Shown piece by piece: positions 12,202-18,283 of a DNA stretch of 41,528 bases. The position numbers and the translations under genes were made by a program. Origin of the DNA: Marmoricola sp. (GTDB lineage: Bacteria; Actinomycetota; Actinomycetes; Propionibacteriales; Nocardioidaceae); the NCBI GenBank assembly GCA_025965315.1, contig JAOPXD010000174.1, forward strand, positions 1-41,528, read 5' to 3'. The notes under the pieces are model-generated. The model did no database searches, was not told the DNA's origin, and saw nothing but the letters and a program-made list of their open reading frames with translations. The stretch's first letter is position 1. Each line of letters opens with the position of its first letter.

Positions 12202-15036
12202 ATGCGCTCACCGCGATTGATCGTGGCTGCCCTCGGACTGGGCACCGCCGCGACGCTTCTGCTGACCTCGACCCTTCCCGCAGCCCTGGCGACCGGCAGT
12301 GCCGCGCCCGGCTACCGCATCAACGACTACGCCGACGGGCAGGCGATGAGTATCCTGCCGCCCGGCGAGAACGGCCTGGTCAACGCGACCGGACTGCTCC
12401 AGTTCGAGCTCACCAAGACCCGGCCCGCGAGCAGCCAGGACCAGCTGCCGAAGTACGCCAACCTGCTCTACGGCTACCCGGGGCTGACCGACGCCAACCT
12501 CGGCAACTACTTCGACGACGAGTCCTTCGGGATCGCGCCCGGCGACGTCACCCGCACCGAGAGCCCCGAGGCCGGGGTGACCGTCTACCGCGACACCCAC
12601 GACGTCCCGCACATCTACGGCAAGACCGACGCCTCTGCTGCGTTCGGTGCCGGCTACGCGCAGGCCGAGGACCGGCTGTTCCTGATGGACGTGCTCCGCC
12701 ACTACGGCGAGGGCACCCTGGCCTCGTTCCTGGGAAGCAGCTGCACCTTCGAGCAGATGGACCACGACCAGCTGCTGCTCGCGCCGTACACGAAGGCCCG
12801 CGCGGACGCCCAGGTCGCGGCGATGGGCCAGCACAACGGTGCCACCGGCAAGCGCGCTGTGACGATGCTCGACAGCTACGTCGCCGGCGTGAACGCCTAC
12901 GTCCAGAAGGCGAGGTCCAACGTCTCGCTGCTGCCGGCGGACTACGCGGCAGCGCTGAGCGGTCCCGCGAAGTGGAGCACGTCCGACGTGGTCGCGATCG
13001 CCGGCCTGATCGGCGGCATCTTCGGCCGCGGCGGCGGCTACGAGGACTCCGACGCCAACCTGCTGCAGTACCTCCAGCACCAGTACGGCGCCAAGGCCGG
13101 CCTGGCGGCGTACCGCAAGGTGAACCACCAGGACGACCGGTCCGCACCGTCGACCGTCGTCGACAAGATCTTCCCGTACGACGTCCCCACCAAGAAGATC
13201 GACAAGTCCCTGACCGCGCTGCCGGACTATCGCAAGCCGCTCACCGGTGGACCGGTCGACACCTCGGCGTCGTGCAACAAGGGTGACGCGACCGCGCCGG
13301 CACTGAAGTCGACCTCGACCCAGAAGCAGAGGACCACGGTCCTGGTCGACAACATCATCGGTTCGCTGAAGGCGCTGCCGCGGCAGATGAGCAACGCGCT
13401 CGTCGTGAACGGCAGCCACACCAAGTCGGGTCACCCGATCGCCGTGTTCGGGCCGCAGGTCTCCTACTTCGCACCGCAGATCCTCTCGCTCGAGGAGATC
13501 CAGTCGCCGCACTACTCCGCCGAGGGGGCATCCTTCGCCGGCACCGGCCTGGTGGAGCTCGGCCGTGGCCGTGACTACGCCTGGTCGGCGACCTCGGCCA
13601 GCAGCGACCTGATCGACCAGCGCGTCGAGAAGATCTGCAACCCCTCCGGTGGGGCCCCGGCGGCCCAGGGGACGTCGTACGTCTTCCAGGGCAAGTGCGT
13701 CCCGATGGTCCACGAGACCTACTCCGAGACCGCCATCCCCAAGCCGGGCGGGACCGGCTCACCGGTCAAGCTGGTGCACCAGATCTACCGCACCCGCCAC
13801 GGCGTCGTGCAGGGCTGGACGACGGTGCACGGCAAGCCGGTCGCCGAGGTGACCCAGCGCTCGACGTACAACCACGACATCGACTCGGTCGTCGGCTTCC
13901 TGCAGTTCGCCGACCCGACGTACGTGCACGACGTGACGTCGTGGATGCACGCGGCGAGCCACGTGAACTACACCTTCAACTGGCTGTACGCCGACAACCG
14001 CGACACCGGCTACTACGTCAGCGGCCTGGACCCGGTCCGGAACCCCGCCGAGGACACCAGCCTGCCCACCTGGGGCACCGGCAAGGCCGAGTGGCGCGGG
14101 TACCTCGGCTACAACCAGCACGTCCACGAGTCCGACCCGAAGCAGGGCTTCTTCGTCAGCTGGAACAACAAGCCGGCGCAGGGCTTCGCCACCGACGGTG
14201 ACTACAACTACGGCCAGACCTACCGCTCGACGTTGCTCGTCACCCAGCTGAAGAACCAGCTCAAGTCGCACGGCAAGGTCACCCGGGCGAACGTGGTCCA
14301 GGCGATGGAGACCGCGGCGAGCCAGGACCTCGACGGCGTCGACGTGATGCCGTTGCTGCTGAAGTACGAGCACGGCAGGAAGCACTCGGCCGGCGTCACC
14401 ACGATGCTGAACACCTTGGCGGCCTGGGTCGCCAAGGGCTCGCACCGCCGCAAGGCCGCGACCACCGACACCGAGTACGTCTCGCACTCGGCGGTCGCGA
14501 TCTCGGACGAGGTGATGCCGCGGCTGGTCCAGGCCCTCTACGACCGGGTCCTCGGCGGCCAGGGCATCAGCGGCGTCGGCTCCACCGGCGGCGCATCCGT
14601 GCCCGGGTTCAGCGCGGTGCCGATGCAGTGGGTTAACACGCCGAACTCGGGTGGCGCGCACCTCGGATCGGCGTACGACGGCGGCTACGAGGGCTACCTG
14701 ATGTCGACACTGCAGCAGCTGCTCGGCAAGCACCCGGGCGACGGCTTCGGCACGGTGCTGACCAGCCACGAGTGCAACGGCGGCCCGTCGACCTGCTCGT
14801 CGGCGATCGCCAAGGCGCTCAATGACGCGTACGCCGCGCTGGTCACCGCGAACGGCACCAGCAACGTGAGCACCTGGGTGGCGTCGTCGGAGTCGGCCGC
14901 AGCCAAGGAGACGATGCCGGAGTACGACTCGATCGGCTTCCAGGCTCTGGGCATCGTCGGCCAGCCGAACCTCGACTGGCAGAACCGGCCCACGTTCCAG
15001 CAGGTCATCGAGTTCCCGGGGCACCGCGCGCGCTGA
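12202..15036 (+). CDS. Secreted penicillin acylase family (Ntn hydrolase) protein
   Basis: A 944-aa precursor of the penicillin/AHL acylase Ntn-hydrolase family. It has an N-terminal signal peptide (hydrophobic 7-25, cleavage probably near ALA) and an alpha-subunit region with VYRDTHDVPHIYG and AGYAQAEDRLFLMD. The autoprocessing site is before Ser397 (QM-SNALVV), whose freed amino group would be the nucleophile. TKSGHPIAVFGP follows, as in the family, though the usual Asn-Asp-Pro-His block is altered to FGPQVS. Substrate could be a beta-lactam, an acyl-homoserine lactone or a lipopeptide. It sits between the lipoprotein and an XRE-TPR regulator, so it may be a target of that regulator. Confidence 0.92.
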   Translation: MRSPRLIVAALGLGTAATLLLTSTLPAALATGSAAPGYRINDYADGQAMSILPPGENGLVNATGLLQFELTKTRPASSQDQLPKYANLLYGYPGLTDANLGNYFDDESFGIAPGDVTRTESPEAGVTVYRDTHDVPHIYGKTDASAAFGAGYAQAEDRLFLMDVLRHYGEGTLASFLGSSCTFEQMDHDQLLLAPYTKARADAQVAAMGQHNGATGKRAVTMLDSYVAGVNAYVQKARSNVSLLPADYAAALSGPAKWSTSDVVAIAGLIGGIFGRGGGYEDSDANLLQYLQHQYGAKAGLAAYRKVNHQDDRSAPSTVVDKIFPYDVPTKKIDKSLTALPDYRKPLTGGPVDTSASCNKGDATAPALKSTSTQKQRTTVLVDNIIGSLKALPRQMSNALVVNGSHTKSGHPIAVFGPQVSYFAPQILSLEEIQSPHYSAEGASFAGTGLVELGRGRDYAWSATSASSDLIDQRVEKICNPSGGAPAAQGTSYVFQGKCVPMVHETYSETAIPKPGGTGSPVKLVHQIYRTRHGVVQGWTTVHGKPVAEVTQRSTYNHDIDSVVGFLQFADPTYVHDVTSWMHAASHVNYTFNWLYADNRDTGYYVSGLDPVRNPAEDTSLPTWGTGKAEWRGYLGYNQHVHESDPKQGFFVSWNNKPAQGFATDGDYNYGQTYRSTLLVTQLKNQLKSHGKVTRANVVQAMETAASQDLDGVDVMPLLLKYEHGRKHSAGVTTMLNTLAAWVAKGSHRRKAATTDTEYVSHSAVAISDEVMPRLVQALYDRVLGGQGISGVGSTGGASVPGFSAVPMQWVNTPNSGGAHLGSAYDGGYEGYLMSTLQQLLGKHPGDGFGTVLTSHECNGGPSTCSSAIAKALNDAYAALVTANGTSNVSTWVASSESAAAKETMPEYDSIGFQALGIVGQPNLDWQNRPTFQQVIEFPGHRAR

Positions 15037-15122
15037 CCCAGCCTGTCCGTACCTGCCTTCCCGACCGCCGAGGATTACTCGCCGTGCCAGAAATCCAGGC
15101 ACGTACGTGCCACCAAGGCAGA

Positions 15123-16493
15123 ATGACGTCCATGGACGCACATCTCGCGGAGCTGAGTCGGACGATCGACGCGTCCGAGCTCGGGCGCCGCATCCGCAAC
15201 GCGCGGATCGCCGCGGGCCTCACCCAGGCCGAGCTGGCCGCCGACGACGTGACGCCCGCCTACGTCTCCCGCATCGAGGACGGCCAGCGGCGTCCGGAGT
15301 TCGGGCTGCTGAACCGGATGGCCGGTCGGATGAGCTCGACCCTGGAGGCCCTGCTCCAGGACCCCACGACCGAGCGCGGACTCGAGCTGCAGCTCGCCCT
15401 CGACTACGCGGAGCTGTCGCTGAGAAGTGGTGAGCCGGCAGACGCTCTTGCCGGGGCCGACGCAGCCTGCGCCGAGCTGACGAAGAACCCGTACGGCGAC
15501 CTGTTGCGGCGGGCACGTCTGCTGCGAGCCTCGGCGCTGGAGGCGACGGGAGACCTGAGCGGCGCGATCATCGAGCTGGAGGACCTCGTTGCCGCACCCA
15601 CGCCGAGCGTCGACTGGGTCCGCGCGCTCATCGCTCTCAGCCGGTGCTACCGCGACACCGGCGAGCTGGCCAGCGCCATCTCCGTCGGCGAGCGGGCCAC
15701 CGCGACGATCGAGGACCTGGAGCTGGCGGGCCTGACCGAGTCGATCCAGCTCACCGTGACGGTGGCCGGCGCCTACATGATGCGCGGCGACCTCGAGCAG
15801 GCCATGCGGTTGTGCCTACGCGCCATCACGGCCGCCGAGGCCGCCGACTCGCCACTGGCGAAAGCGTCGGCGTACTGGAACGCCAGCTCCATCGAATCGC
15901 GCCGCGGCGAGCGGGTCCGGGCGCTGGAGCTAGCCCGCAAGGCCCTGACCTACTTCGAGATCGGCGACGACGCCCGCAACCTCGCACGGCTGCGAGGTCA
16001 TGTCGCCGACATGCAGCTCGACAGCGACCCGCCCGACGCCCTGGGGGCCATCGAGACCCTGACCCAAGCCGCGCGCGAGCTCGACTCGTCGCCCGGCAGC
16101 ACGGTCGACCGGGCCAGCCAGCTGCAGACCCGCGCCAAGGCCTTCCTCATCCTCGGGCAGATCGACGAGGCTGCCGCCGACGTACGGGCGAGTCTCGAGC
16201 TCGCACCCGAGAGCGCTGCCTTCCTGCGCGCCTGCGGACACTCGCTCGAAGGCCAGCTCGCGATGGACGCCGGCAACACGTCCGAGGCTCGGGCCGCGTT
16301 CCTGACCGCCGTACACCTGCTGTCCGGCATCGGCGCTGACCGGGAAGCCGCCCAGCTCTGGTTCGAGCTCGCAGGTCTTCTGCGTGATGTGGGCGAGTCC
16401 GAGGCTGCCATGGACGCGTTCCAGCGAGCTGCCGCTTCGACGGGCCTCCAGACGTCCTCCCTGCGGCACCGCGTCGTACGCGCGAGGTCCTGA
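15123..16493 (+). CDS. XRE-family HTH regulator with TPR sensor domain
   Basis: A 456-aa regulator. The XRE helix-turn-helix covers about residues 20-75 (IRNARIAAGLTQAELA...YVSRIEDGQRRP), and the rest is a continuous run of about nine TPR-like helical pairs. This is the architecture of the RRNPP regulators (PlcR, NprR, Rgg), whose TPR groove binds a short secreted peptide. ATG 15123 is preceded by AAGG at 6 nt; ATG 15132 is an alternative. An in-frame GTG at 15084 would add a poor N-terminus. Downstream, on the opposite strand, is a 40-aa secreted-peptide ORF, which may encode its ligand. A hairpin terminator follows the gene. Confidence 0.9.
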   Translation: MTSMDAHLAELSRTIDASELGRRIRNARIAAGLTQAELAADDVTPAYVSRIEDGQRRPEFGLLNRMAGRMSSTLEALLQDPTTERGLELQLALDYAELSLRSGEPADALAGADAACAELTKNPYGDLLRRARLLRASALEATGDLSGAIIELEDLVAAPTPSVDWVRALIALSRCYRDTGELASAISVGERATATIEDLELAGLTESIQLTVTVAGAYMMRGDLEQAMRLCLRAITAAEAADSPLAKASAYWNASSIESRRGERVRALELARKALTYFEIGDDARNLARLRGHVADMQLDSDPPDALGAIETLTQAARELDSSPGSTVDRASQLQTRAKAFLILGQIDEAAADVRASLELAPESAAFLRACGHSLEGQLAMDAGNTSEARAAFLTAVHLLSGIGADREAAQLWFELAGLLRDVGESEAAMDAFQRAAASTGLQTSSLRHRVVRARS

Positions 16494-16532
16494 CCCGCCC
16501 GGCCTGATCCTCCCGGCCGGCAGGAGCACGAA

Positions 16533-16558
16533 GTGGGCCCGGCGAACGCCGGACCCAC
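16533..16558. terminator. Hairpin between convergent XRE-TPR and peptide genes
   Basis: An 11-bp stem (16533-16543 with 16548-16558, one C-A mismatch) and a 4-nt loop lie between the regulator stop (16493) and the peptide-gene stop (16575). Near-palindromic, so it can terminate transcription from either side. Confidence 0.65.
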
Positions 16559-16574
16559 CCCTGATCGCCCGCGC

Positions 16575-16697
16575 CTAGCAACACACCTTGGTGTCCGCCG
16601 AGGCTCTCCCGGCAGCGCCGATCTCAGTGACCGAAGCACCGCCGATCGTGACCAGGACGAGTACTGCGACGACCGCGACCTTCGTGAACGTGCCCAT
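16575..16697 (-). CDS. 40-aa secreted peptide, candidate pheromone precursor
   Basis: A small ORF found by reading the minus strand. It has a textbook RBS (AGAAGGG, 7 nt before ATG 16697). The product has a short N-terminus with one Lys (MGTFTK), a hydrophobic core of about 17 residues, a Gly/Ala stretch, then a signal-peptidase-like Ala-Ser-Ala (32-34) followed by the C-terminal hexapeptide DTKVCC. Cleavage there would release exactly that hexapeptide. Size, export signal and position beside an XRE-TPR regulator match Phr/PapR/NprX-type pheromone precursors of Firmicutes, but here in an actinobacterium and with a Cys-Cys end. It could instead be a small membrane peptide. No homologue is recalled; the function is inference. 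Confidence 0.6.
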   Translation of the reverse strand: MGTFTKVAVVAVLVLVTIGGASVTEIGAAGRASADTKVCC

Positions 16698-16755
16698 CGA
16701 AATGCCCTTCTGCCGACGCGCCGGATGCGCGTGCCTGACAGAAGAAGTAACATCG

Positions 16756-16774
16756 AGTCATATTCGGAATGACT
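16756..16774. promoter_or_regulatory. Inverted repeat, candidate operator of the peptide gene
   Basis: AGTCAT-N7-ATGACT, perfect 6-bp arms in an unusually AT-rich stretch, 59-77 nt upstream of the peptide start codon. Spacing suits an operator for a dimeric HTH regulator such as the adjacent XRE-TPR protein. I cannot place a convincing -10/-35 around it. Confidence 0.45.
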
Positions 16775-16837
16775 TATCCACAGGTCGTATGTCTTTATCT
16801 GCCTGGGTTGGCGAGAAGACCTGACACGGGAATGCCA

Positions 16838-16891
16838 AAGACCCGAACCCACGTCCGTGGGTTCGGGTCTTGTCGATGTCCTGAGACATCA
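16838..16891 (+). mobile_element. Remnant right end of a second IS481-like element
   Basis: A 16-bp perfect hairpin (16838-16853 with 16856-16871) is followed at once by CGATGTCCTGAGACATCA (16874-16891). The intact element's right end has the same order: a hairpin with the same CCCAC..TCCGTGGG core, then the same 18 bases. No transposase remains in front of it. Read as a solo end left by deletion or by a tandem insertion. The hairpin probably still works as a terminator. Confidence 0.6.
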
Positions 16892-16967
16892 TGGCGGTGG
16901 CGGTGGTGTTCTGGTTCAGGACATCGGAATGGGATGTCTCAAGACATCGGAATAGTTGGCTTGGCCG

Positions 16968-18149
16968 GTGTCGAAACGTCGCCTGGTCATCACCGCAGTC
17001 CTCGCCGGAGCAACCCAGTCAGAAACGGCCCGTCGCTACAGCGTGAGCCAAGGCTGGATCAGCCGACTCATGGCCCGCTACGCGACCGAGGGCGAAGCTG
17101 CGTTCGAACCCCGATCACGAAGACCGAACAGAACACCCAACGCGCTTGCGACCAAGACCGTGGAACTAATCCTTCGACTCCGCAATGAACTGACCGCAGC
17201 CGGTCTCGACGCCGGCCCCGAGACCATCGCCTGGCACCTCGAACACCACCACGGCGCGGCTGTCTCGAGGTCAACGATCAGCCGCCACCTGGCCAAGGCC
17301 GGCCTGGTCACCCCCGAGCCCCGCAAACGACCCAGGTCCTCCTACATCCGCTTCGAAGCCCGGATGCCGAACGAGACCTGGCAATCCGACTTCACCCACT
17401 ACCGACTCACCCACCCCGACGGCCGCCCCGGACCCGACACCGAGATCATCAGCTGGCTCGATGACTGCACCCGCTACGCCCTGCACGTCACCCCACACAG
17501 GCGGATCACCGGATCGATCGTGACCACCACGTTCCGTCAAACCGCAGCCCGGCAAGGGATCCCCGCCTCGACGCTGACCGACAACGGCATGGTCTACACA
17601 ACCCGCCTAGCCGGTCTCGGACGCCAAGGAGGACGCAACAGCTTCGAGGTCCAGCTCCGCACCTGGAACGTGATCCAGAAGAACTCACGACCCAGCCACC
17701 CCACCACCTGCGGCAAGGTCGAACGCTTCCAACAAACCCTGAAGAAGTGGCTCCGAGCCCAACCGAACCAGCCGACCACGCTCGCTGAACTCCAGACCCT
17801 GATCGACCTGTTCGTCGATGAGTACAACCACCGCAGGCCGCACCGCTCGCTGCCGCACCGAGCAACACCCGCAACCCTCTACAACACGATGCCGAAAGCC
17901 GTCCCGACCGGCAGCCGAGACCCCGACACCCACGACCGGATCCGCCACGACATCGTCAACGACAACGGCTCCGTGACCCTCCGAGTCGCCGGGAAACTGC
18001 GCCACATCGGCATCGGACGAACCCACGCTCGAACCCACGTCATCCTGCTCATCAGCGACCTCGACGTCCGCATCGTCAACGCCATCACCGGCGAACTCCT
18101 CCGCGACCTCACCATCGACCCGAGCAAGGACTACCAACCCCAGAAATGA
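16968..18149 (+). CDS. IS481-family transposase (DDE)
   Basis: A 393-aa intact transposase: N-terminal HTH region (VSQGWISRLMARY), then an rve-type integrase core with the DDE triad in WQSDFTH, LTDNG and GKVERFQ. The closing HRRPHRSL motif and a beta-rich C-terminal tail are present. No frameshift or stop interrupts it, so the element may still be active. GTG 16968 (VSKRRLVITAVL) matches the usual family start; a TTG at 16956 would overlap the end of the left inverted repeat. Codon use is visibly less GC-extreme than in the neighbours, consistent with recent arrival. Confidence 0.93.
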   Translation: MSKRRLVITAVLAGATQSETARRYSVSQGWISRLMARYATEGEAAFEPRSRRPNRTPNALATKTVELILRLRNELTAAGLDAGPETIAWHLEHHHGAAVSRSTISRHLAKAGLVTPEPRKRPRSSYIRFEARMPNETWQSDFTHYRLTHPDGRPGPDTEIISWLDDCTRYALHVTPHRRITGSIVTTTFRQTAARQGIPASTLTDNGMVYTTRLAGLGRQGGRNSFEVQLRTWNVIQKNSRPSHPTTCGKVERFQQTLKKWLRAQPNQPTTLAELQTLIDLFVDEYNHRRPHRSLPHRATPATLYNTMPKAVPTGSRDPDTHDRIRHDIVNDNGSVTLRVAGKLRHIGIGRTHARTHVILLISDLDVRIVNAITGELLRDLTIDPSKDYQPQK

Positions 18150-18152
18150 ACC

Positions 18153-18182
18153 AGCCCGGACCCACATCCGTGGGTCCGGGCT
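18153..18182 (+). terminator. Terminator hairpin in the IS right end
   Basis: A perfect 13-bp stem (18153-18165 with 18170-18182) and 4-nt loop, 3 nt after the transposase stop. It lies between transposase and tRNA-Pro and may stop transcription from both sides. Confidence 0.7.
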
Positions 18183-18209
18183 ATTCCGATGTCCTGAGAC
18201 ATCACACTG

Positions 18210-18283
18210 TCGGGCTGACAGGATTTGAACCTGCGGCCTCGTCGTCCCGAACGACGCGCGCTACCAAACTGCGCCACAGCCCG
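18210..18283 (-). tRNA. tRNA-Pro (anticodon CGG)
   Basis: A full cloverleaf on the minus strand: acceptor arms CGGGCTG and CAGCCCG pair over 7 bp; the anticodon stem CGTCG/CGACG encloses loop TTCGGGA with anticodon CGG; the T arm GCAGG-TTCAAAT-CCTGT is intact. The discriminator is A and CCA is not encoded. The 3' end lies 3 nt from the IS481 element, so its native downstream sequence has been replaced by the IS. Confidence 0.93.

Follow-up and report, generated by a model that had tools for sequence, protein, structure and literature searches.

A candidate peptide-pheromone cassette with a Cys-Cys tail and a TPR receptor in Marmoricola and other Actinomycetota

Known TPR-receptor systems and the Marmoricola locus

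Peptide signalling through cytoplasmic receptors built from tetratricopeptide repeats (TPRs) is described as a Firmicutes trait in a paper whose scan, the largest published, covered Firmicutes and viruses only, and which gives actinobacterial signals as typically small molecules (PMC10075063). Five RRNPP criteria are named there: a propeptide of 10-100 aa, SEC secretion, a receptor of ~250-500 aa, TPRs, and neighbouring genes. This was the sole open-access paper found linking RRNPP with Actinomycetota; no report of a Cys-Cys peptide/receptor pair was found in the open-access literature, and none linking RRNPP with Nocardioides. We analysed a 41,528-nt stretch of a Marmoricola sp. genome (contig JAOPXD010000174.1, assembly GCA_025965315.1; here called the window), in which a preliminary description had proposed an RRNPP-type pair outside Firmicutes, made up of an XRE-type helix-turn-helix (HTH)/TPR regulator and a convergent 40-codon open reading frame (ORF) ending in DTKVCC. 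Both genes were located as claimed, and the candidate pair is supported by comparative evidence, from which we infer its function.

In PlcR-PapR of the Bacillus cereus group, the gene for an HTH+TPR receptor likewise adjoins that for a small pro-peptide, which is exported and carries the signal at its C-terminus. PlcR is, however, ~285 residues long rather than 456, the phylum is different, and PapR is not known to have a Cys-Cys. NprR-NprX differs in gene order, with 12% identity, and the NprX peptide sequence is unlike that of the window peptide. Rap-Phr is set apart by the DNA-binding HTH of the window receptor, as Rap proteins are not known to have one. The arbitrium system AimR-AimP is similar in combining an HTH/TPR receptor with a hexapeptide signal; it is a phage system, whereas the phage side here consists of HTH-region matches and one partial phage record without a Cys-Cys peptide.

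The window regulator, the candidate pheromone receptor (15123-16493, forward strand), is 456 aa long, although where the homologues usually begin agrees better with an alternative in-frame ATG at 15132. Its XRE-type HTH (~aa 19-67) is followed by a TPR superhelix (~aa 84-439). Pfam matches above cut-off were HTH_31, HTH_3 and several TPR families (TPR_2, TPR_8, TPR_14, TPR_16 and others), and the AlphaFold2 model consists of all-helical repeats (mean pLDDT, the predicted local distance difference test score, 89.9). Structure matches of this model by Foldseek include PlcR (3u3w, E 5.6e-7), Rap and NprR, and the best natural PDB match by sequence profile was PlcR 2qfc (E 2.1e-11; profile 15-197, the HTH and first TPRs).

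The candidate pro-pheromone gene (16575-16697, reverse strand) encodes the 40-aa peptide MGTFTKVAVVAVLVLVTIGGASVTEIGAAGRASADTKVCC, and its stop codon is separated by 81 nt from that of the regulator. A good ribosome-binding site (RBS) and an N-terminal secretion segment had been attributed to it: an RBS-like AGAAGG (16706-16711, reverse strand) ends 8 nt before the ATG, and among 43 small ORF/start combinations at 15001-17000 this ORF alone exceeds the hydrophobicity limit. The codons of DTKVCC, a possible mature signal directly after Ala-Ser-Ala, occupy 16578-16595 on the same strand. Set beside the RRNPP criteria, the locus has a propeptide of 40 aa (34-66 aa across the family), a receptor of 456 aa with TPRs in both Pfam and the model, and adjacent genes; for secretion, the part observed is a hydrophobic leader, scored by Kyte-Doolittle. 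Compared with NCBIfam and Pfam, P0001 and ten other peptides gave nothing above any cut-off. No second full-length peptide was found in the host's own genome (assembly 90.5% complete), where other profile matches were partial and weak.

Recurrence of the pair and constraint on the peptide

The source set comprised 193 fetched loci (L002, L004, L015-L205), which are the better-scoring ones and no random sample. They gave 210 family genes, of which 138 were distinct and 126 had an intact HTH and TPR region. A CC ORF was defined as one that encodes 25-75 aa, includes a hydrophobic stretch and has Cys-Cys within the last three residues. Such an ORF was convergent and downstream of 90 of the 126 intact regulators and divergent and upstream of 9, so that 99/126 have one within 1.3 kb; the remaining 27 had neither, two of these having <250 nt of downstream sequence. 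The 12 excluded non-intact genes comprised 3 with a convergent CC ORF, 1 with a divergent one and 8 without. For 25 of the 27 CC-less regulators, no other RBS-bearing hydrophobic small ORF was found either. Counted anywhere in the fetched stretch, a CC ORF was present in 64 of 80 named loci. The conservation beside regulator homologues that the preliminary description had called for was thus observed.

When hydrophobic ORFs of 25-70 aa were collected without selecting for Cys-Cys, a CC end was found in 102/125 lying downstream antisense and 8/23 upstream antisense, and in 0/29 downstream sense and 0/19 upstream sense. Requiring an RBS-like site gave 92/93 downstream antisense, 5/7 upstream antisense and 0/2 upstream sense; downstream sense ORFs with such a site were not found. 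When the downstream flanks were dinucleotide-shuffled, each of five rounds gave 0/126; in other DNA of the same origin, 330,626 nt in all, one CC ORF of this kind occurred. The presence of the Cys-Cys ORF beside the regulator is therefore confirmed as more than chance.

The 117 peptide genes, beginning with ATG in 114 and preceded by an RBS-like site in 102, encode 109 distinct peptides of 34-66 aa (median 41). Within this set, for which CC in the last three residues was a selection criterion, 107/109 end exactly in CC. The preceding residue is W in 73 of the 107, and 102 have no Cys besides the terminal pair. Beside some receptors, two or three peptide genes stand in tandem. Over 30 disjoint gene pairs (1-25% nucleotide difference), the proportions of synonymous and non-synonymous differences were pS = 0.193 and pN = 0.079 (pN/pS 0.41), with 111/81/206 differences at codon positions 1/2/3. 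This third-position bias, which had been anticipated, and the pN/pS show a translated frame that evolves under purifying selection. The last six residues were not shown to be more constrained: amino-acid/silent changes number 19/14 in that stretch, 81/74 over residues 1-20 and 108/85 in the part between. The proposed tblastn search with the 40-aa peptide matched the host's own genome only (1/341 family genomes); this formally negative result arises because the peptide diverges too fast, the conserved features being position, leader and tail.

Release of DTKVCC by a cut after Ala-Ser-Ala, as first suggested, is not supported beyond being one option among others. A-x-A-type sites 4-8 residues from the end occur in 35/109 peptides, fewer than the 64.7 in shuffled Ala-rich controls, and A-D-x(2-4)-CC ends occur in 14/109.

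Over 99 pairs, tail distance (residues -8 to -3) rises with TPR-domain distance (rho 0.40, 0/499 permutations), and less strongly with HTH distance (rho 0.28). Restricting the comparison to diverged pairs gives 0.20, and taking the first 20 peptide residues gives 0.17 (0/199 permutations each). On a FastTree tree of 172 receptors, peptide orientation takes 4 changes over 132 tips versus at least 28 in 200 shuffles, and peptide presence or absence takes 24 versus at least 32. The states were set by hand, the divergent class included L274-L277, L293, L295 and L297 (non-terminal or non-CC tails), and no fewer than four loci are present twice under different ids.

The regions before the two genes also share a motif. 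TTG[AC]CA occurs upstream of peptide genes in 42/80 non-redundant regions, against 7.0 in shuffles. On either strand it is present in 50/79 peptide upstream regions, 38/79 regulator upstream regions and 4/127 other pieces, the latter being richer in G+C. The window copy has no TTG[AC]CA in the last 105 nt before its peptide gene. A putative common operator before both genes would fit feedback.

Proposed signalling and its alternatives

We assign a probability of roughly 0.8 to the reading that the two genes form a self-contained cell-cell signalling cassette working like the Firmicutes RRNPP systems, with an exported and re-imported pheromone and its receptor. Observed for it are the two genes, a linkage that is kept in both orientations, constraint on the peptide's coding frame, a near-fixed Cys-Cys, tail/receptor correlation, receptor architecture with predicted fold, and a shared upstream motif; export, cleavage point, re-import, binding and regulatory output are what we infer. 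The short gene would give a pre-peptide whose basic/hydrophobic N-terminus directs export through Sec, and signal peptidase, perhaps with further trimming, would free the C-terminal part, with Cys-Cys at its end, as the signal. After accumulating outside, this signal would re-enter the cell through an oligopeptide-binding transporter; the host genome encodes four SBP_bac_5 proteins, and an importer is therefore available. The peptide may then bind in the groove on the concave side of the neighbouring HTH protein's TPR superhelix and change how this protein acts at operators before both genes of the cassette (feedback) and at other targets. The cassette would work like an RRNPP system, and its receptor may share descent with Rap, Rgg, NprR, PlcR and PrgX or be an independent HTH-TPR fusion. 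Generic eukaryotic TPR proteins match the regulator model as well as or better than Rap, NprR and PlcR, and shared descent alone could be enough for the correlation between tail and receptor distances.

It is improbable that the peptide is an effector rather than a ligand, a small secreted product with thiols (a bacteriocin, or a peptide for metal or redox chemistry) whose gene the neighbouring regulator controls. An effector would suit a paired Cys-Cys end, which is chemically reactive, a regulator that could bind the motif before the peptide gene, and the CysN/CysD-like and other sulfur-type neighbours in one clade (10-11/80 named loci, names by sequence reading). However, in a clustering of neighbouring ORFs of >=110 aa, no family apart from the regulator occurs in more than 19/80 loci, so no immunity or export gene accompanies the pair throughout; the tail is tracked by the receptor's TPR part, beyond the HTH alone; and the receptor's predicted fold is that of a peptide receptor.

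We give very little weight to a toxin-antitoxin-like pair, in which an XRE regulator silences a small hydrophobic membrane toxin. The adjacency of a small hydrophobic peptide to an XRE protein would agree with this, as would a weak match to a Y4mF-antitoxin model among the HTH matches in Pfam/NCBIfam (34.7 bits, cut-off 71.65), but the hydrophobic part is followed by a polar tail with a fixed CC (107/109), tandem peptide copies share one regulator, some regulators have no peptide at all, and a simple antitoxin does not need a 360-residue TPR domain. Least probable, to the point of being negligible, is a chance open frame in GC-rich DNA: the tblastn result would be expected of one, whereas the recurrence (90/126, with 0/126 in shuffles), the coding bias and the 92/93 CC ends would not. 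At family level this explanation is refuted by recurrence, shuffles and pN/pS.

If the cassette does signal in the RRNPP manner, a group thought to signal mainly by small molecules has an unrecognised peptide language, and the phylum of major antibiotic producers gains a second, genetically programmable one. Since signal and receptor are adjacent, synthetic tails would be directly testable as inducers of silent functions. A more speculative extension, which we consider doubtful, is a phylum-wide family of gene-encoded pheromones in which the near-fixed Cys-Cys end itself switches chemically: outside the cell it would be oxidised or bind metal, the cell's thiol pool would reduce it on import, and the TPR receptor would recognise the reduced form alone, so that the signal might report both kin and redox state.

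Distribution and neighbourhood

Regulator homologues at E <= 1e-30 were found in 6/24 genomes of the genus and 119/341 of the family (scoring no more than four candidates in each genome). A contig scan with the single regulator protein as query gave no match and was repeated with alignment A1. At E <= 1e-40, profile A1 matched 64/391 genomes (4/40 genera) in an order-level draw, 67/394 genomes (31/137 genera) in a class-level draw and 5/296 genomes in a phylum-level draw. By these rates the regulator is absent from the majority of sampled genomes.

Among 22 class-level loci (L239-L260), of which at least four repeat family-set loci (identical peptides in L178, L189, L203, L205), a CC peptide accompanies the regulator in 18, convergently in 2 and divergently in 16. 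Divergent pairs were found in Jiangella, Haloactinopolyspora, Nonomuraea and further families. A further 20 loci (L279-L298) gave a terminal CC ORF in 9, which in L286 shares the strand of the receptor; in L295 and L297 the CC lies a few residues inside the peptide end. L274-L277, four loci that belong to other classes of the phylum, have a divergent ORF of 28-30 aa ending in FPWGGT, FPGP, FPWPK or YPWPK, and such non-CC tails are perhaps a sister dialect. The plasmid collection held 11 matching records (Streptomyces 10, Nonomuraea 1), and five plasmid or phage stretches (L269-L273) were read. On Streptomyces plasmid L270, an annotated hypothetical protein ending in IPLCC lies just downstream on the same strand; L269, also from Streptomyces, has an ORF ending in DLPLCC ~2 kb away; and the Nonomuraea record L272 has a divergent ORF ending in DAGCC. 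No CC peptide was found in the stretches of L271 and of L273, an unverified phage record with a partial match to the regulator at 45%. Viral contigs contained no full-length relative, with HTH-region matches only, in 8 contigs. Our best reading is that the peptide/receptor pair is widespread in Actinomycetota, its carriers being Nocardioides, Marmoricola-like bacteria, Jiangella, Haloactinopolyspora, Frankiales-type metagenome-assembled genomes, Nonomuraea and Streptomyces plasmids.

The host's second receptor (G000:C191:74034-75359 = L004:5038-6375) is 50% identical to the window regulator, has no nearby CC peptide, and is flanked by two ORFs that resemble secreted lipases on sequence reading. 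Tandem HTH-less TPR paralogues occur in L021 (G011 contig 11), where three adjoin one CC peptide gene, and in L079 (G223 contig 3), and are candidate Rap-like or decoy receptors. Short regulator forms of ~293-298 aa (HTH and first TPRs) occur in L023 (543-1427), L126 (2029-2910), L046 and L020, adjoining a full-length regulator in the first three.

The adjacent secreted acylase (12202-15036) had been suggested as a target. Among the 304 fetched loci it matched none but the window's own copy, and the suggestion is therefore not supported. In one Nocardioides clade (L147, L150, L154, L156, L158 and similar), the cassette lies between CysD/CysN-like and rhodanese-like plus histidine-kinase-like genes, a setting of 10-19 of 80 loci (genes named by sequence reading) that is curious for a Cys-Cys peptide.

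Six upstream regions compared side by side share a box 50-56 nt before the window peptide start (16747-16753, reverse strand), which reads ATGTTAC in the window, L015, L025, L135 and L103 and GTGTTAC in L021. Beside it lies the imperfect palindrome AGTCATATTCGGAATGACT (16756-16774), a possible operator. Both are situated outside an IS481-type element (16930-18206) upstream of the peptide gene, which has 26-nt inverted ends and a transposase gene (16956-18149; NCBIfam 218.5 bits, slightly below the cut-off of 224). An 84% copy of the element's right end at 16842-16891 is probably the remnant of an earlier insertion, and a tRNA-Pro (cgg) gene (18209-18283) adjoins the element.
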